Assembly: GCA_015075105.1 (NCBI GenBank)
Contig: JABTUZ010000001.1
Span: 755,001 to 819,000, forward strand
Source of the DNA: Leptospiraceae bacterium
GTDB lineage: Bacteria > Spirochaetota > Leptospiria > Leptospirales > Leptospiraceae
Reading direction: 5' to 3'
Length of the DNA stretch: 64,000 nt
Part shown: positions 25,559 through 34,394 of the stretch, piece after piece
Layout of the letters: each line of letters begins with the position of its first letter
How positions within the stretch are numbered: position 1 is the first letter of the stretch
The notes under the pieces: model-generated
Databases searched by the model: none
Told to the model about the DNA's origin: nothing
Seen by the model: the letters and a program-made list of their open reading frames with translations, nothing else
Position numbers and translations under genes: made by a program

Positions 25559-27856
25559 ATGCAAATTTTTCATAAAATACTCATCTATAAGAAATATCTA
25601 AAAGGAGATTTTTATGGAGGAGTGTCTGCAGCTATACTTTCTATTCCGAGTGCCTTAGCTTATGGAGTTTTGGCTTTTGCACCACTGGGAGAAAAATATA
25701 TTGCCTTAGGTGCTGTTGCCGGTTTATTGTGTGTAGTTTTTAATGGAACTGTTTCTTCTCTTTTTGGAGGAACTCCTACCATGATTTCAGGACCTAAAGG
25801 CTCAATTACACTTATACTTAGCTCTATTTTGACAAGGTTGCTAATTGGGATGAAAGCCGATCTGAACGATCCAGTTGCAATTTCTTTAATTATCACTATA
25901 CTCTTTTTTTCGATTTTTCTATCTGGATTGTTTCAAGTAATTTTTGGAATGATGAAAATAGGAAACTTTATTAAATTCATTCCTTACCCTACAATAGCCG
26001 GATTTATCAACGGAACAGCCATACTGATTATTACAAACCAATTGAGTATATTTTTTGGGGTGAAAGGGCATGACTTTTTCTCGACTGTTTTTCAAGACCC
26101 AAGTCAAATACAGATTTTGACTTTTATTGTAGGGCTTGTTACTGTGTATTTTATTTTATTTCCAAATAGGATAACTAAAAATTTACCGAGTCCTGTAGTT
26201 GGGCTTTTTATGGGGGCACTCACTTATTATATTTTTATATTTCTTGGGTTTGAAAAAGAATTGGGTCCTGTAATGGGGGCTGTCGGAATCGAATTTCCTA
26301 CACCTAAATACATCCCCGAATTTATTAGTTTATTTACCAGCGTTGAAGTATTGAAAACTATTCTAAGTATTTTTCCAGCGATTGTAGTTTTAACACTATT
26401 AACATCTATTGACACTTTGGTAAATAGTTTAGCAGTAGAAAGTTTCACCCATCAAAAGTCGGATTGCAATAAAGAATTAATAGGGCAAGGACTTGGGAAT
26501 TTGATTTCGGCTTGTTTTGGAGGGCTTTCCGGGGCAGGGACAGCATCTCGTGCGCTTGCGAATTATAAATCGGGAGGGCGTACTGAGTTGAGTGGTGGGA
26601 TCAGTGGAATTTTTGTATTGATTTCTGTACTCTTTTTTGCTACTGAAATGAAGTATATTCCCAAGGTTGTTCTCGCCGGTATTTTGATTGCTATTGGTAT
26701 TCAGATGTTTGATCGGTGGAGTCTTAGGATTTTAAAAAAAATAATACAAAGGAAGGTGCACAATTGGACAGAGACGGCAACTAACGTCCTTGTGATCTTT
26801 GTTGTTTCAGCTACTTCGGTTATTGTGGACATGGTGTTTTCTGTTTTTTTAGGTCTTGGGTTGACAATTCTTTTACTTGCAATGAAAACATCTCAATCGG
26901 GAATTCGGAAAAAATACTATGGTGGTAAAATATTTTCTAAAAAGCAAAGAGATTCTCGCTTTATGGAAATTCTCTATGATGAAGGGAGAAAAATAGTTGT
27001 CTTTGAATTGGAAGGGTATTTGTATTTCGGTTCTTCGGAAAGGCTCGCCGATGAAATCGACAAGTTGGACGATCAAATACGTTTTGTGATTATAGATTTA
27101 AAAAGGGTAGTTGAGATAGATATTACCGGAGCCAAGGTTTTAGAAAAAATATTTAAAAGTCTCCAGAAAATAGACGTGCATCTTTTTGTTACCAACTTAG
27201 ATACTCATGGAAAAATTTGGTATTTTTTGCAGGATACGGGAATTTTAAATTCAATCGGTCAAAAACATTTTTTCCCAGATACGGATATTGCATTGGAATA
27301 CGCAGAAGATTATTTGATTAACTACAATTTTGTCAGAAGAATGAGTCCGGATTCGACAATGAAAGAGGAAGATAGGGCTTCTAATTTAATTGATCTTTTT
27401 GATATGAACTATAAGGAAATTCCGTTAGAGAAAACAGATATATTTCAGGGTTTCACAAAAGAAGACCTTTCTATTCTAAGGCCTTACTTAGAAGAGAGGG
27501 TATTTAATATTGGAGAAACAATTTTTAGACAAGGTGATCCGGGAGATGAAATGTTTATCATCACAGAAGGGACAGCAACTGTTTCTATAAATCTATCCGA
27601 AAATAAATATAAAAGACTTATCGTATTTAGTCCAGGTACAGTATTCGGAGAAATGGCTTTGATAGACAAAAAGCCGAGATCTGCCAATTTAGAAGCAAAT
27701 GACCACTTAGTGTGTTATTCGTTGTCGTACAATTCTTTTTTGGAATTAAGAAAGATGCACCCGGAAATCATCATCAAGCTATTGGAAAATATCAGTAAAG
27801 AAATCACATCAAGGCTTAGGATGAGTCACAGTATTATTTCAGAATTAGAAAATTGA
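25559..27856 (+). CDS. SulP anion transporter with STAS and cyclic-nucleotide-binding domains
   Basis: A 765-residue three-part protein. Residues about 1-440 form the SulP membrane domain (about 12-14 helices) with SIPSALAYGVLAFAPLG and GGTPTMISGPKG near the start and GLSGAGTASRA near 325. A STAS domain follows (about 465-575) with VIIDLKRVVEIDITGAKVL. The C-terminal CAP-ED domain (about 640-765) has the phosphate-binding cassette FGEMALIDKKPRSA, including the Arg that contacts cyclic nucleotide phosphate. Likely a sulfate, bicarbonate or related anion transporter whose activity responds to cAMP or cGMP. It converges on the adenylate cyclase operon 78 bp away. ATG at 25559; no strong ribosome site seen. 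Confidence 0.88.
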   Translation: MQIFHKILIYKKYLKGDFYGGVSAAILSIPSALAYGVLAFAPLGEKYIALGAVAGLLCVVFNGTVSSLFGGTPTMISGPKGSITLILSSILTRLLIGMKADLNDPVAISLIITILFFSIFLSGLFQVIFGMMKIGNFIKFIPYPTIAGFINGTAILIITNQLSIFFGVKGHDFFSTVFQDPSQIQILTFIVGLVTVYFILFPNRITKNLPSPVVGLFMGALTYYIFIFLGFEKELGPVMGAVGIEFPTPKYIPEFISLFTSVEVLKTILSIFPAIVVLTLLTSIDTLVNSLAVESFTHQKSDCNKELIGQGLGNLISACFGGLSGAGTASRALANYKSGGRTELSGGISGIFVLISVLFFATEMKYIPKVVLAGILIAIGIQMFDRWSLRILKKIIQRKVHNWTETATNVLVIFVVSATSVIVDMVFSVFLGLGLTILLLAMKTSQSGIRKKYYGGKIFSKKQRDSRFMEILYDEGRKIVVFELEGYLYFGSSERLADEIDKLDDQIRFVIIDLKRVVEIDITGAKVLEKIFKSLQKIDVHLFVTNLDTHGKIWYFLQDTGILNSIGQKHFFPDTDIALEYAEDYLINYNFVRRMSPDSTMKEEDRASNLIDLFDMNYKEIPLEKTDIFQGFTKEDLSILRPYLEERVFNIGETIFRQGDPGDEMFIITEGTATVSINLSENKYKRLIVFSPGTVFGEMALIDKKPRSANLEANDHLVCYSLSYNSFLELRKMHPEIIIKLLENISKEITSRLRMSHSIISELEN

Positions 27857-27933: not shown

Positions 27934-28275
27934 TTATTTTATCTTTTGTAAACGAGAGGAGTTTAATTTGGCTACCTCAGAGTTTGGGTTTATCTCAATT
28001 ATTTTTTCCCATAGAGTTTCTGCCTCTCTATATTTTTTCGTTTTAAAATATACGTACCCAAGGTTGTTCATCGCTTGAAAATTTTTTGGATCTAAATCGA
28101 GGCATTTCTTAAAATTAAGAATTGCATCTTCAAATCGTTCAATACGCAAAAAGCAGTTTGCAATTTTTAAGAGCACTTGAGAAGTGTCGCCTTCTAAGAT
28201 TTGTATCTCTTGAAACAGAGTTAGAGAATTGCTGTAATCTTTTGAAGAATACAAATAGATTGCTTTTTTATACAT
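27934..28275 (-). CDS. Small TPR protein, last gene of the receptor/cyclase operon
   Basis: A 113-residue protein with no signal peptide, made of about three tetratricopeptide-like helical repeats. The clearest are CFLRIERFEDAILNFKKCLDLDPKNF and NLGYVYFKTKKYREAETLWEKIIEINPNS-type units spaced 34 residues apart. TPR repeats mediate protein contacts. It begins 5 bp after the adenylate cyclase stop, so it is very probably co-transcribed and could be a cytosolic partner of the cyclase. That partnership is inferred from position only. Confidence 0.8.
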   Translation of the reverse strand: MYKKAIYLYSSKDYSNSLTLFQEIQILEGDTSQVLLKIANCFLRIERFEDAILNFKKCLDLDPKNFQAMNNLGYVYFKTKKYREAETLWEKIIEINPNSEVAKLNSSRLQKIK

Positions 28276-28280
28276 TTCTT

Positions 28281-29957
28281 TTAGAGTTTTTTTTTAGACT
28301 TTGACTCTTGTGATTTATCTTTCTTTTGTGTGCTGGTATGAATGAAATAATCTAAGGTTTCAGAGCTTTGAATTTTCACCTGTTGTATTTCCGGGTCAAC
28401 CTGAGGAATTGAAATTTGTATTTTTTGATTTATGATTTTTTTTCTTTGTTCATAAAATTTGTCGTTGGGTTCAACACCCAATTCATCTTTTGAGTATTCT
28501 TTCTTGATTCTGTTTACAAAATACATTCCTATGGGAGCTTTATTTTTTGCCGGAATTTTTCCTCTGTATTCGCACTCAAAAAATTCTTTTATGTAACTAT
28601 AAGTAGTTTCTGAAATATTGACTTTTCCTGGTTCACCGGAGGACTCCATTCTGGAAGCAGTATTGACAGTATCCCCCCATATATCGTAGGCAAATTTTTT
28701 CCTTCCAATCACACCTGCCATAATCTGACCGGTATGAATTCCGAGCCTCATCTCCCAGTAAGGCTCTTCGTTTAGAATTTTAATTCGTTTTTTCTCCTCC
28801 ATGAAATTCTGCATTTGTAGCCCTGCCACACAGGTATCAATAGGGTGAGAATTATTTTCTTCGGGGATTCCTCCTGCACACATATAAGCGTCACCAATAG
28901 TTTTGAGTTTTTCTAATGTGTGCCTTTCTGTAATTTCATCAAACTTAATGAAGCACCTTTCTAATTCCATGAGCAATTCTTTTGGATCCATAATTTCTGC
29001 GACTTTCGTAAATCCTTTAAAATCCGTGAATAGAATAGAAGTGGAATGGTAAAGCCTTGACTCTACATGACCATTTTCTTTTAACTCTTCGCTGATTTTC
29101 ATCGGGAGAATGTTGAGTAAAAGACTTTCGCTTTTTTCTTTTTCTTGCTTTAACTCTATAGTTCTTTCAATGACTTTTTGCTCTAAATTATTCATCAAAT
29201 CTTGAATTTTTGCGGTCATGTCATTGAATGAAAATGCAAGCTCACCAATCTCGTCAGAACTTTGAACTTTGATTCTGTGGTTTAGATTTCCTCCACCAAT
29301 TATATTTGCACCTTTAGAGAGTTGCAATATCGGACGAGTGAGTACAATAGCTGCTATGATTCCGATAATGACAGCAAAAGAAAAAACTATAACTGAGGTA
29401 AGAATAATTGTGTCCCTAATCTTGTTTATGGGAGCATAGACTAATTTCTTATCAAACTCAAAAACAGCAGCTCCAAGCTTCATATTTTTTTCGCCGTAGC
29501 TCATAAAAATCGGGTAAATAAAACGTAAGTTGACTTTTTTGTTCTCATTGGAAAATTCGGATAAAGAGAGATTGGAAATATTTTGAACTTCATTGATTAA
29601 TTTTTCTGAAGCAAAAGTATTCAGTCTTGTTTTGTTCATATCTGCAATGATTTGTCCTTCTACATTCAATACATAAGCGTCGTTTAAAGCATTCACGTTT
29701 AATTCTTTTAATCTGTAGATTGAAGTTTGTGTAGAATCATAAGTTTCATTGATTAATAATTCTTCTGTTGCAAAATTAGCGATATTTTGAGCCATATTTT
29801 TACAGACTTCTAAAGTTTTTTCAGTGATGACTCTTTCATTTTGCCAGAGAACTAATAACGAGACAGGAGATATGCTAAGCACCACAATTCCTGAAGCAAG
29901 AAGAATCATTTTTACTTTTAAACCAGGCGAGAATAATTTTGTAATTAATTTATGCAT
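28281..29957 (-). CDS. Membrane adenylate cyclase (class III) with HAMP domain
   Basis: A 558-residue signal transducer. Membrane helices lie near 17-37 and 184-206, with a periplasmic sensor of about 145 residues between them. A HAMP domain (about 207-260), a coiled-coil linker and the cyclase domain (about 300-475) follow. The catalytic set looks complete: first metal Asp in FTDFKGF, Lys and second Asp in KLKTIGDAYM, Asp in YDIWGD and the Asn/Arg of NTASRM. The Lys/Asp pair indicates ATP rather than GTP as substrate. The Lys/Ser-rich tail has no known domain. It starts 19 bp after the TonB-dependent receptor stop. The periplasmic sensor probably reads a signal delivered by the receptor or binding protein of the same operon. 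Confidence 0.92.
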   Translation of the reverse strand: MHKLITKLFSPGLKVKMILLASGIVVLSISPVSLLVLWQNERVITEKTLEVCKNMAQNIANFATEELLINETYDSTQTSIYRLKELNVNALNDAYVLNVEGQIIADMNKTRLNTFASEKLINEVQNISNLSLSEFSNENKKVNLRFIYPIFMSYGEKNMKLGAAVFEFDKKLVYAPINKIRDTIILTSVIVFSFAVIIGIIAAIVLTRPILQLSKGANIIGGGNLNHRIKVQSSDEIGELAFSFNDMTAKIQDLMNNLEQKVIERTIELKQEKEKSESLLLNILPMKISEELKENGHVESRLYHSTSILFTDFKGFTKVAEIMDPKELLMELERCFIKFDEITERHTLEKLKTIGDAYMCAGGIPEENNSHPIDTCVAGLQMQNFMEEKKRIKILNEEPYWEMRLGIHTGQIMAGVIGRKKFAYDIWGDTVNTASRMESSGEPGKVNISETTYSYIKEFFECEYRGKIPAKNKAPIGMYFVNRIKKEYSKDELGVEPNDKFYEQRKKIINQKIQISIPQVDPEIQQVKIQSSETLDYFIHTSTQKKDKSQESKSKKKL

Positions 29958-29976
29958 GTCTCTTATGTTTTATCCG

Positions 29977-32805
29977 TCAAAATGATTTAAAATGAATTTT
30001 AAAATAAATACTTCTACCCGGTTGATTGTACAAAACATCAAACGTACCAGTTCCTGCTGCAAGCGCACCTGCATCATAATATTCTTTATTCATTAAGTTA
30101 TCTATTCTTACCATCAAGTCAAGATTTTCTGTAATATTGGACCAATAGAAAACAAAATTCAATAAATAGTAAGATGGGGCTTTGATTGTTGTGTCGATTG
30201 GATTATTATAATAGTATCCCGGCTCTCCCGGAGTTGTGTCTATAGGTAGGTACCCGGGACTTCCAATTTTTGAAAGGTTGGCGGTATTTGTGGTCGAAGG
30301 AACTCCTTTATCACTAACGTATCTTCCGATTAAAGTAAATGTATAGTTGTCTTTGAATGTATAAGAAACGCTTGAGCTGTATTGGGTTTTTGCTGCGTAG
30401 TTTAGAGTAGAGCTTCGTTTCATTGTATCGTCGTCGTACTGCTTAGTCTTAGTCAAAAAAACTTGGGCGAGATTTGCTTTATACGCTAATTCACTTTTCA
30501 CCTCATCCATCCATCTAAAGGATCCGTTAAAAGATATTGTGAGATTTTTCATAGGTCGTAAATCAAATTCAACTTCCCCACCTTTACTTCTATAGTCGTT
30601 TGTAGAGTTGGCTTGTTGTCGATAGTCGAATGTGCCTGTGGGTCTGTCGTTGACTTTGAAACTACTCTCTCCGTACAGCTTTTCTCTTCTATCTCTTACT
30701 TGGTAGTAAATAATATCACTGATGAGGATACTGTAAACTGTAAATTTACTAACTAACCAATTGAATGGAGTATAGATAATTTGTGACTCATAAGTTTTGT
30801 TGGACTCAGGCTTTAAATTTGGATTTCCAAAAGTTGAGTTTGCTCTTGCATAGTACAATTCAAAAATAGATGGAGCCTTGTATGCCTCACCATACATCAT
30901 TTTAATTACAACATTATCTTTTGGTTTTAGGATTAACCCTGCTCGAGGGCTATTTTTTGAATGAAAAATACTATCGAAGTCGTAACGTATTCCGGCGTTG
31001 ATATTGATCATTTTGTGAGGAGTGTAACTCCATTGGGCGTAAGTCCCGTGCTGAAAAGTGTTAAATTTTGGTACATCGGAATAATTGTTTCCTATCGTTT
31101 CCGGGAAATACCATAGAGTAGTGTAGCGATATTCATAATTTCCACCCGCAATGATCGACATATTTCTTAAAATATCATAATTTGCTAGGAAACGAAATCC
31201 GGAAATTTTATCGGCTCCTTTCATTGGTTGGATAAACCTTTGGGTACCTAATTTATTTTTAGCCGGTTTTGCAGGGTCTGTGATCGGACCATTGTAAGGG
31301 TTATCTTCGTATCTTGCGTCTTTTCCCCATTCTGTTTGATCATAGTAAATAGAGGAACGAAGCTCTAATCTTTCTGTAACTTTTTTTTCCCAGAGTAGGT
31401 CAGCGTAGTATTTATTGATTTGAAATAGAGTATTTCCCCCAACGCTGTATTGGCTGATTCCTTTTCTGCCATTATCTTGGCTAAACATTGTATTCAACAT
31501 AAAATCTTTGTATTTAATTTTAGTATAGGAATTCACGTATTTGCTATCGTTTCCGGTGTTGTAAACATCTCTGCCTTTTACATCAGACCATTCCTTGATC
31601 TTTCTTGGAACATTTTCATTATAATAAGAAAGAGTAGAGTAAATTTGTCCGGTTTCTGCAAAAGTTTTTGAGCCTGTTATATTTCCACCTAAGGTAGAGT
31701 TAGAGCCACCGAGTGCAGAGATTTGTCCGTCTCCTACATCTTTATTGTCTTTCGTGATAATATTCATTACCCCAAGTACCGCGTTCGCTCCCCACAGAGC
31801 CGAGTTTGGGCCTTTTACAATTTCAATCCTTTTGATATTGTCAACGGACAGCCAAGCAGGGGAAAGGTAGTTTCTGTAAAATTGTCTCCATGTCATGTCA
31901 TGCCCATCGATTAGAATTTGCCAGTATTTACCCATGTTTAGATTGCTATTGATCCCTCGTCCACCAATATCAAGTAGATACCCTTGACCGGGTGAATTAA
32001 TATCGATCATTGCAACATCTCTTAAAATATCGAGAATCGTGTTATAACCTTTTTTTTGAATTTCTTTGTCAGTGATTACTACAATACTCGCCGGGGCTTC
32101 AGATACTTTTTGTGCTTTTTTTGACGCGGTTACAACTTCAGTCTCCTCAAAAATCTTAAAAACATCAGCAATGTCGCTTTCTATATTTTCTTTTTGTATA
32201 GGAAAATTTTTAACTTGTCCGATTGGTGAGCCTATTACGTATTCGTCGATATTTTCACTTTTAACGGCTCTTTTAGAATTGGTTCTCAGTCTGTCGGAAA
32301 GCTTTGTTGTGAATTCAGAGATGCTCGTATCATCCGGGATTTGCATTTCTTGCTTATCGAGAACGATTCCTTCTTCGGTAGAGCCTAAATCTTCTTCTAC
32401 ATTGATTGCATCTATCAAAAAGCCTGTTTCAGGATTGTAAATCTGCCCATACAAATTTAGATTTTCTGATTGTGAAGTTTTTTTGTAAAGCCCTTCAACG
32501 TAAAAAATAGCTTTTGCTTCTTTTGCATCTTGCAAATTCAAATTTAGATTTTTCCCTTTCGAATTCACTACTCGAAACCCTAAATGAGAAAGCCTTTTTT
32601 CTAAAGAACTGTAAATTTTATTTGAAATTATAGAATTTTCTGGAGACTTAAATGAAGTGAAAGGAGCTAAATAAATAATACCGGAATTGATTTTTTTTGT
32701 TTGAGAGATGATTTCAGATTTTTCAAATTGAAAAATACAAAGACATAGAAATATCAATGGAAATATGTATCTCTTTTTTAAAAATTGTCTCATTTCTATT
32801 TTCAT
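29977..32805 (-). CDS. TonB-dependent outer-membrane receptor with N-terminal extension
   Basis: From the ATG at 32805, which overlaps the upstream stop as ATGA, this has 942 residues; an ATG at 32814 is the alternative. A signal sequence comes first. Then comes an extra domain of about 140 residues whose pattern (YLAPF, LGFRVV, YVEGLY, a GQIYNPETG strand) resembles the TolB-N/CsgG-like fold. A plug domain follows from about residue 225 (TEVVTASKKAQKVSEAPASIVVIT) with the conserved IEIVKGPNSALWG. A 22-strand barrel of Tyr- and Asn-rich strands ends in a C-terminal Phe. It imports a siderophore, cofactor or other large nutrient using TonB energy. No TonB/ExbBD genes are in the window. The extension is unusual for this family. 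Confidence 0.92.
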   Translation of the reverse strand: MKIEMRQFLKKRYIFPLIFLCLCIFQFEKSEIISQTKKINSGIIYLAPFTSFKSPENSIISNKIYSSLEKRLSHLGFRVVNSKGKNLNLNLQDAKEAKAIFYVEGLYKKTSQSENLNLYGQIYNPETGFLIDAINVEEDLGSTEEGIVLDKQEMQIPDDTSISEFTTKLSDRLRTNSKRAVKSENIDEYVIGSPIGQVKNFPIQKENIESDIADVFKIFEETEVVTASKKAQKVSEAPASIVVITDKEIQKKGYNTILDILRDVAMIDINSPGQGYLLDIGGRGINSNLNMGKYWQILIDGHDMTWRQFYRNYLSPAWLSVDNIKRIEIVKGPNSALWGANAVLGVMNIITKDNKDVGDGQISALGGSNSTLGGNITGSKTFAETGQIYSTLSYYNENVPRKIKEWSDVKGRDVYNTGNDSKYVNSYTKIKYKDFMLNTMFSQDNGRKGISQYSVGGNTLFQINKYYADLLWEKKVTERLELRSSIYYDQTEWGKDARYEDNPYNGPITDPAKPAKNKLGTQRFIQPMKGADKISGFRFLANYDILRNMSIIAGGNYEYRYTTLWYFPETIGNNYSDVPKFNTFQHGTYAQWSYTPHKMININAGIRYDFDSIFHSKNSPRAGLILKPKDNVVIKMMYGEAYKAPSIFELYYARANSTFGNPNLKPESNKTYESQIIYTPFNWLVSKFTVYSILISDIIYYQVRDRREKLYGESSFKVNDRPTGTFDYRQQANSTNDYRSKGGEVEFDLRPMKNLTISFNGSFRWMDEVKSELAYKANLAQVFLTKTKQYDDDTMKRSSTLNYAAKTQYSSSVSYTFKDNYTFTLIGRYVSDKGVPSTTNTANLSKIGSPGYLPIDTTPGEPGYYYNNPIDTTIKAPSYYLLNFVFYWSNITENLDLMVRIDNLMNKEYYDAGALAAGTGTFDVLYNQPGRSIYFKIHFKSF

Positions 32806-34394
32806 TTTTTCCATAAGAATCTACATTTCTTATCCTTCTTTTCAGAGCAGTTTAGATGGTCAACGAGAGCCTTGTCTTTCTTCTTAGAAAGCCTTGAGTA
32901 TTCTTGAGCTTCTTTATTTTCAGGAAAGAGAAGTAGGACAAGGTCAAAGATTTCCAAAGCTTGTTTGTATTTTCTGGAATTGTACAATTCGTTTCCCAAT
33001 TCAAGATAGGATGAAATTTTATGGTATTCTTCTGATCGAATTTGAGCCATTTTATCTTTCACTTTTTGGTTGTTCGGATAAATTTCTAATGATATTTTTA
33101 GTTTTTTGTAGCTATCAAAAACTTTTTTATTCGATAGAAGTTGAATCGCTTCATTGTACTCTTTTTCACTTGCCGATTTTTTTGATTCTTCTAAATAGTG
33201 TTGTGCTTCAAGTGAGTCGGGGTTTAACGATAAAACTTTTTTAAAAATTTCTAAAGCCGAACTAAAGTTTTTCTTTTCGTAATAGTCTTTCCCTTGAATC
33301 AGTAAGAGGTGGGTTTGTTCTCCGGTCAATTTTTCTGTAGCTTTTTGAATGTATTCTTTTATATTTTTATTTTCTGGATCTTTTTTGGAGAGTGCTATAA
33401 AAATATTTCTTGCAGATTTTACTTTTCCAGTATTTAAGAGATACACTCCTTTTGAAAAAATTCTGCTTAGTCTTGCCCTCTCAATAATTGAAGAAGGGAG
33501 CACGACTCCTGACTCTTTTGCATAAGATTCATTGACTGCAAAAATAGACTCTTGCAAAAATAAAAAAGGGCCTTCTTTGCATTCTTGGCTTTTTAATAAT
33601 AATTGATTTGCTAACTCACCAGAGCGTACTCCAATTTTGTTATAATCCGGGCTGATACTGAAAGTAGCTCCTGCTTTCAGTATGGAAGGGAAACTCGTAA
33701 TTAGGATAACTTTATTTTTTTTACAAAAATTAGAAAGTATCTCAAAGTTTTTTTGATTGTACAGGCGATCGTTTACCATGAGAATGGCTTCTACTTCTCC
33801 CTTAATTTGGTCTAATACTGACTGAAAATTTATATTCGGGTTTACTTTTCTTTTGGTGTATAAAAAGTTAAATTTCAGATCGTTGAAATCTCCTTCAGTA
33901 GCTTGTTGTTCTCCTGTTTGGTCACTGTAAAATGAATAAACTTTTTTTATATTTGGAGATATATCTTTTAATATTTGAAAATATTCTTTAATTTCAATTT
34001 CACTGACGACCCCACAAATTTTATTCTTATTTAAGTTTAAAGTCTTTGGGGAGTTGACCATCGAAAACATAATGGGAATATTGGATAGGTATTCCTTCGC
34101 TAACTGTGTAGCTTTTAAACCGAATGTTATTACTAAGTCCGGCTTTGTAGATTGTACTTCTTTAAAGTAATTGTCTATATTTGGGTATTCAGACTCAATA
34201 ATGTCAATGAATTGAATTTTAGGCTCTACTTGCAATGTGGATCGCAAACCAATAAGTCCTTCTTCATAAAACCTGTTTGAAGATGATAAAAGTACCAAGA
34301 CTTCTTTCCTTTCAGGAATTTTTTGAGAAAAATTGGGTGAATTTTCTGAAAAAAATATGATAAGAATCAATATAAAAATTTTTCGTAGTTTCAT
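32802..34394 (-). CDS. ABC-type substrate-binding domain fused to TPR repeats
   Basis: A 530-residue exported protein with a signal peptide (about 1-24) and no clear lipobox. Residues about 30-300 look like the PF04392-type periplasmic binding domain (SSSNRFYEEGLIGL, DLVITFGLKATQLA, PIMFSMVNSP, and YSFYSDQTGEQ). The rest is a series of TPR-like helical repeats rich in Lys, Glu and Tyr (about 310-505), then a Cys/Lys-rich tail. No ABC permease or ATPase gene is nearby, so it is unlikely to feed an ABC importer. It is the first gene of the operon and overlaps the receptor gene, which suggests that it hands ligand to, or senses ligand for, the receptor/cyclase pair. Confidence 0.82.
   Translation of the reverse strand: MKLRKIFILILIIFFSENSPNFSQKIPERKEVLVLLSSSNRFYEEGLIGLRSTLQVEPKIQFIDIIESEYPNIDNYFKEVQSTKPDLVITFGLKATQLAKEYLSNIPIMFSMVNSPKTLNLNKNKICGVVSEIEIKEYFQILKDISPNIKKVYSFYSDQTGEQQATEGDFNDLKFNFLYTKRKVNPNINFQSVLDQIKGEVEAILMVNDRLYNQKNFEILSNFCKKNKVILITSFPSILKAGATFSISPDYNKIGVRSGELANQLLLKSQECKEGPFLFLQESIFAVNESYAKESGVVLPSSIIERARLSRIFSKGVYLLNTGKVKSARNIFIALSKKDPENKNIKEYIQKATEKLTGEQTHLLLIQGKDYYEKKNFSSALEIFKKVLSLNPDSLEAQHYLEESKKSASEKEYNEAIQLLSNKKVFDSYKKLKISLEIYPNNQKVKDKMAQIRSEEYHKISSYLELGNELYNSRKYKQALEIFDLVLLLFPENKEAQEYSRLSKKKDKALVDHLNCSEKKDKKCRFLWKK

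Follow-up and report, generated by a model that had tools for sequence, protein, structure and literature searches.

Four adjacent genes on the minus strand of a Leptospiraceae genome appear to encode a relay across the cell envelope, in which a TonB-dependent receptor would inform a periplasmic binding protein bearing TPR repeats, the binding protein an inner-membrane sensor, and the sensor an output that can be swapped; in the copy analysed here the output is a predicted adenylate cyclase, so that ligand arrival would be turned into cAMP. We place the probability of this reading at about 0.6. It is built on features that can be read in the sequences themselves: the architecture of the proteins, the tight packing of their genes, a three-gene core, co-divergence, the swapping of outputs and a set of catalytic residues. 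The physical contacts, the order of events, the ligand, the target and the sign of the effect that a relay entails are inferred.

ORF calling across the window (the whole 64-kb stretch of DNA under analysis) confirmed all four minus-strand genes, at the coordinates at which an earlier note had placed them. In the order of transcription they encode a binding protein exported to the periplasm, with TPR repeats towards its C-terminus (32802–34394; 530 aa; ORF, Pfam and export-like N-terminus), a TonB-dependent outer-membrane receptor (29977–32814; 945 aa; Pfam Plug and TonB_dep_Rec_b-barrel), an inner-membrane sensor-HAMP-class III adenylate cyclase (28281–29957; 558 aa; ORF, Pfam, hydropathy and residues) and a small cytosolic TPR protein (27934–28275; 113 aa; Pfam TPR). 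The first two genes overlap by 13 bp, and gaps of 19 bp and 5 bp follow. The ORFs and junctions thus agree with the earlier description of four minus-strand genes with overlaps or gaps of at most 19 bp, and the Pfam matches with its naming of a PF04392-like exported protein with TPR repeats, a TonB receptor, a membrane cyclase and a small TPR protein. The upstream neighbour, 225 bp from the binding-protein gene, encodes a DinG-like helicase and is divergent; the neighbour downstream of the small TPR gene encodes a SulP transporter and is convergent. The four genes therefore form a stand-alone unit and are probably co-transcribed. A promoter and terminator scan returned sites no more numerous than in shuffles. 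The SulP transporter (25559–27856, plus strand) carries a STAS domain and a C-terminal cyclic-nucleotide-binding domain and is a possible local target of cAMP; its gene is not among the families that recur across the 35 module loci described below.

Profiles of the binding protein (A1), of an N-terminal domain of the receptor (A2) and of the sensor (A3) were compared with 48 genomes of the class, many of them drafts and related to one another. The binding-protein/TPR gene occurs in 35 copies in 24 of the 48 genomes, the receptor N-domain in 23 and the full-length sensor in 24. Each pair of these core families is held jointly by 22 genomes, a co-occurrence with a Fisher p of about 1e-9 when relatedness among the 48 is ignored. 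The genes also lie together: 32 of the 35 binding-protein genes have a sensor gene no more than 8 kb away, and 24 have an N-domain receptor at that distance or less, with three more at up to 13 kb, so that the binding protein accompanies the sensor more faithfully than the receptor. In four divergent copies the adjoining receptor has no detectable N-domain. Three binding-protein genes have no sensor nearby; at two of them (G005:C54 and G035:C78) the locus is limited by short or broken contigs. The third, in G023 (L087 8784–11801), is a binding-protein/TPR gene with two receptors and no sensor, followed by a soluble cyclase of 258 aa.

Clustering of 404 genes from the 35 loci gave only three widespread families, namely the binding protein (35 loci), the receptor (27) and the sensor (27). 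The fourth commonest reached five loci, four of these from one genus, and flanking genes differ between module copies while the core stays. A recurrent metabolic gene, sought among the neighbours as a clue to the ligand, was not found. Outside the class, the binding-TPR architecture was not seen at E<=1e-20 in 296 genomes drawn from the phylum, where the receptor N-domain gave weak matches to other proteins only. Judged by these comparisons, the receptor, the binding protein/TPR and the sensor domain are the conserved core of a real module: the co-occurrence that the earlier note had anticipated holds for these three, which co-occur and adjoin across the class. Its expectation that cyclase and receptor would stay together in relatives held in part, in that L041 and L042 keep a sensor-PAS-cyclase, whereas most relatives keep receptor and sensor without a cyclase at the locus.

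The window genome holds a second full module (L035 4234–11382; G000:C1, about 1,647–1,654 kb) with a sensor-SpoIIE-TPR output, and an AraC-like gene lies just past it on the opposite strand. In one genus (L077 12476–14974, L074, L075, L076 and L078) the module is trailed by a set of related ~390-aa proteins; they show weak similarity to sortilin/BNR repeats and lie between the binding protein and the receptors.

Might the cluster be one of chance neighbours without joint function, the cyclase sensing something unrelated? A genome with 22 class III cyclase domains will have some beside receptors by chance. However, the second copy in the genome and 33 elsewhere keep the core while their flanks differ. 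Chance is already contradicted by this conserved core, and we consider it highly improbable.

The binding protein and its sensor diverge together. Distances between binding proteins correlate with those between the neighbouring sensors (r=0.91 over 30 pairs), against a maximum r of 0.43 in 2000 control shuffles. When sensors were exchanged between paralogous modules in the same genome, r fell in 13 of 15 cases and changed by <0.001 in the remaining two. Clades in the binding-protein and sensor trees match, with the exception of the window copy, whose binding protein groups with the kinase/cyclase-output branch (99/95) and whose sensor groups with the phosphatase-TPR branch (90/95). Since the two fall in different sub-clades, the history of the window module may include recombination. 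Adjacency and co-divergence are arguments that the genes function together, not that their products touch, and adjacency could in part reflect shared regulation only.

The binding protein begins with an export-like signal, followed by a PF04392 (ABC_sub_bind) domain at residues 78–307 (33474–34163, minus strand), whose Pfam E of 3.9e-21 makes the protein a member of that family by the domain criterion, and by periplasmic TPR repeats at about residues 360–500 (32895–33317, minus strand; Pfam). The nearest solved structures of the domain are 3lft, 6hni and 3lkv, ABC binding proteins of the TrpX type with which it shares a binding-domain family by profile. The window protein differs from these in scoring below the cut-off for NCBIfam TrpX (63.7 of 390 bits), in its TPR extension and in the absence of a transporter partner nearby; the resemblance does not fix its ligand. 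Plasmids that were searched yielded PF04392 proteins of the plain type only.

As a rule, PF04392 proteins serve ABC transporters as binding proteins, the window one being closest to TrpX, and receptors of the window type import ligands. On these grounds the genes could be taken for an uptake system with a regulator, receptor and binding protein feeding an ABC permease encoded elsewhere, while the sensor would control expression or activity uninformed by either. We think this unlikely. A scan around the 35 binding-protein loci, which covered ATPase motifs within 6 kb, found no protein with a Walker A and an ABC signature motif at any of them, and the lack of an ABC ATPase remarked on in the earlier note is in this respect a property of every copy. 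Further, the TPR extension is a conserved part of the binding protein's family, the sensor (32 of 35) is a more constant companion of the binding protein than the receptor is, and the output of the module is always a signalling enzyme.

The receptor has the plug (Pfam E 6.4e-18, residues 237–349), the barrel (E 7.1e-29; both matches over the cut-off) and the TonB box of a TonB-dependent receptor, the last as a box-like motif, ETEVVTA, read directly at residues 224–230 (32125–32145, minus strand) with the plug following. Its barrel is closest to colicin I, B12 and haem/enterobactin/siderophore receptors, a likeness that leaves the ligand unfixed. Between the signal peptide and the TonB box is a domain of ~170 residues, missed in the earlier note, that is a candidate signalling domain (residues 44–215; 32170–32685, minus strand) and is conserved in 14 relatives at 25–46% identity. 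Against Pfam, STN included, the domain of the window receptor had no match at E<=1; the N-domains of 13 relatives likewise had no STN match, and by sequence no solved structure in the PDB matches. Comparisons with E. coli TolB, CsgG and LpoB were not significant, a rough CsgG-like set gave E 0.021 at a probability of 2%, and among distant N-domain relatives joined to barrel-like proteins the sole outcome was a FlgO match below threshold, in one relative; a CsgG/FlgO/TolB-N-like fold is accordingly a lead, not a result. AlphaFold2, run on single sequences, gave unusable models for the receptor N-domain (mean pLDDT 39.8) and for the sensor domain (44.8). According to a study of Leptospira interrogans (PMC8638967), no receptor of that species carries an N-terminal extension with which it could touch anti-sigma factors.

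The N-domain is also found elsewhere. Of 60 N-domain receptors, 27 are more than 20 kb from a binding-protein gene or on another contig, so the domain may serve something else. The window genome itself has a tandem pair of N-domain TonB receptors (L096 5938–11612; G000:C1, about 890–896 kb) that has neither binding protein nor sensor close by; a gene unit follows it. In other families of the phylum, relatives of the domain are fused to a different barrel-like C-terminal part (L142 719–1801, L143 803–1885); the FlgO match below threshold came from a third relative.

Receptors of this kind away from binding-protein genes, the tandem pair included, together with the N-domain relatives on other barrel-like proteins outside the class and with the fact that the linkage of binding protein and sensor is the tightest in the module, would fit a signalling pair made up of binding protein/TPR and sensor alone; the receptor would then be a co-regulated importer whose N-domain serves transport, assembly or peptidoglycan. 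Such a division of roles seems to us somewhat unlikely, because 22 of the 24 genomes with the binding protein also have the N-domain, and because this domain precedes the TonB box, the site used by known transducers (PMC11637429).

The third gene encodes the sensor and the output. Hydropathy gives two hydrophobic spans (18–36 and 189–207) that flank a periplasmic stretch of ~150 residues, with the sensor domain, conserved as family A3, at residues 37–183 (29409–29849, minus strand). This domain is common to the cyclase, phosphatase and histidine-kinase versions of the protein. Pfam detects a HAMP domain (E 6.5e-14) and a Guanylate_cyc domain (PF00211, E 2.5e-50), the class III cyclase domain occupying residues 300–482 (28512–29060, minus strand). 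Its adenylate-cyclase residue set is complete: D312, K352, D356, D425, N432 and R436, which we take, from general knowledge of class III cyclases, to be the two metal Asp, the adenine-specifying Lys/Asp, the Asn and the Arg. The best-matching solved structures are adenylate cyclases, and the protein qualifies as a class III adenylate cyclase whose activity is predicted. A search of genome contigs with the cyclase returned only relatives of the catalytic domain, in Bacteroidota. The window genome (G000, 3.4 Mb) encodes 22 cyclase domains of class III, and its 14 cNMP-binding domains could receive a cAMP signal.

Twenty-nine complete sensors adjoin a binding protein, and they end in SpoIIE/PP2C (26), a histidine kinase (2) or a class III cyclase (1), the sole cyclase being that of the window; in 15 of the 26 SpoIIE/PP2C versions a TPR tail is fused at the C-terminus. 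The earlier note's receptor-to-cAMP system is therefore an apt description of the window copy but not of the family, in which SpoIIE/PP2C is by far the commonest output. The cyclase is, on domain content, one of several interchangeable outputs, all of them signalling outputs. Further combinations of sensor and cyclase exist: L041 and L042 have an additional, second sensor-HAMP-PAS-cyclase in the locus, and another lies at a contig end in G005 (L105). Distant sensors in G018 and G029 also end in a cyclase and adjoin exported TPR-only proteins, which suggests that the periplasmic TPR is the element that the sensor recognises. In L107 (8130–10614) and L108 (8691–11267) the TPR-only proteins are exported and possibly lipid-anchored, their genes are divergent from those of the distant sensor-HAMP-cyclases, and the genomes are without the binding protein. 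Inside the modules of L080 (9655–14797), L081, L084 and L085 lie SiaC-like and slr1658/DUF6272-like genes together with the gene for a second SpoIIE protein. By their similarity, the SiaC-like and slr1658-like products are the kind of partners that a PP2C output would target, which ties the relay to a partner switch.

The small TPR protein lacks an export signal. When compared with all TPR genes of eight family genomes, its six best non-self matches were the C-terminal TPR tails of the module's sensor-SpoIIE-TPR proteins, one of them from the second module of the same genome (C1:1,650–1,654 kb). Because all of these are module TPR tails, the protein is a detached part of the module rather than the product of a random TPR gene, and its role as a partner is supported.

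Taken as a relay, the module would work as follows. The TonB-dependent receptor would catch a ligand at the cell surface, and its N-domain, the admitted ligand or both would engage the PF04392 binding protein, whose TPR repeats would bind the inner-membrane protein at its periplasmic sensor domain. The change would pass through HAMP to the output, here the class III adenylate cyclase, so that ligand arrival would alter cAMP. The small cytosolic TPR protein corresponds to the output-side TPR of the phosphatase version, here on a separate polypeptide, and is probably a scaffold for the cyclase or for its target.

Several known systems share parts of this plan. In signalling of the FecA-FecR-FecI and FoxA-FoxR-FoxI type, the receptor is TonB-dependent, bears an additional periplasmic domain before its TonB box and is connected to a signalling protein of the inner membrane (PMC11637429), and the signalling domain of such transducers sits at the position of the window receptor's N-domain (PMC11637429). 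The window N-domain, however, has no STN match, and no FecR-like anti-sigma or ECF sigma gene is present among the four window genes or as a family recurring in the 35 loci. The module moreover interposes a TPR-bearing binding protein, and its outputs are cAMP, a PP2C phosphatase or a histidine kinase. Because both the STN domain and the FecR/sigma pair are missing, we do not file it under FecA/FecR/FecI signalling: by analogy it is functionally like TonB-dependent cell-surface signalling, and not a member.

In LuxP-LuxQ, ChvE-VirA and TorT-TorS a periplasmic binding protein without a permease informs a membrane sensor, and the window binding protein likewise appears to lack a permease of its own and lies beside a membrane sensor. 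It differs in joining a PF04392 fold to TPR repeats, and the module in its unrelated sensor domain, its obligate-looking TonB receptor partner and its cyclase or phosphatase output. The SiaA/SiaB/SiaC and related PP2C partner switches share the HAMP-SpoIIE output and, with L080-type loci, the SiaC-like and slr1658-like genes, but the Sia system has neither the module's sensor domain nor its binding protein and receptor. In the window copy the output is a cyclase, and a SiaC phosphoprotein or SiaB-like kinase is absent from the window set and present in L080-type relatives only. LprA of Leptospira kobayashii, a light-activated adenylyl cyclase, shares the cAMP output in a spirochaete (PMC9043183), but is driven by light, with no receptor or binding protein described.

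A published description of the combination of receptor, binding protein and sensor was not found in the openly licensed papers searched. We regard the module as a form of receptor-linked signalling across the envelope in which the parts are new and the outputs can be swapped. We would give even odds to the wider proposition that such relays from outer membrane to cytoplasm operate throughout the class, an undescribed receptor N-domain and a TPR-bearing binding protein driving a conserved sensor with PP2C, kinase or cyclase outputs, and that in the window receptor occupancy is converted into cAMP.

Known signalling from TonB receptors leads mostly to sigma factors. If the relay is true, nutrient receptors would also feed second-messenger and phosphatase pathways, by way of an extra binding-protein step and with an output that has been exchanged during evolution. 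The new receptor domain would acquire a function, and PF04392 proteins without transporters would be explained. In Leptospira kobayashii cAMP alters swimming within a short time (PMC9043183); for a lineage with such a reported effect, the relay would supply candidate inputs to cAMP signalling.
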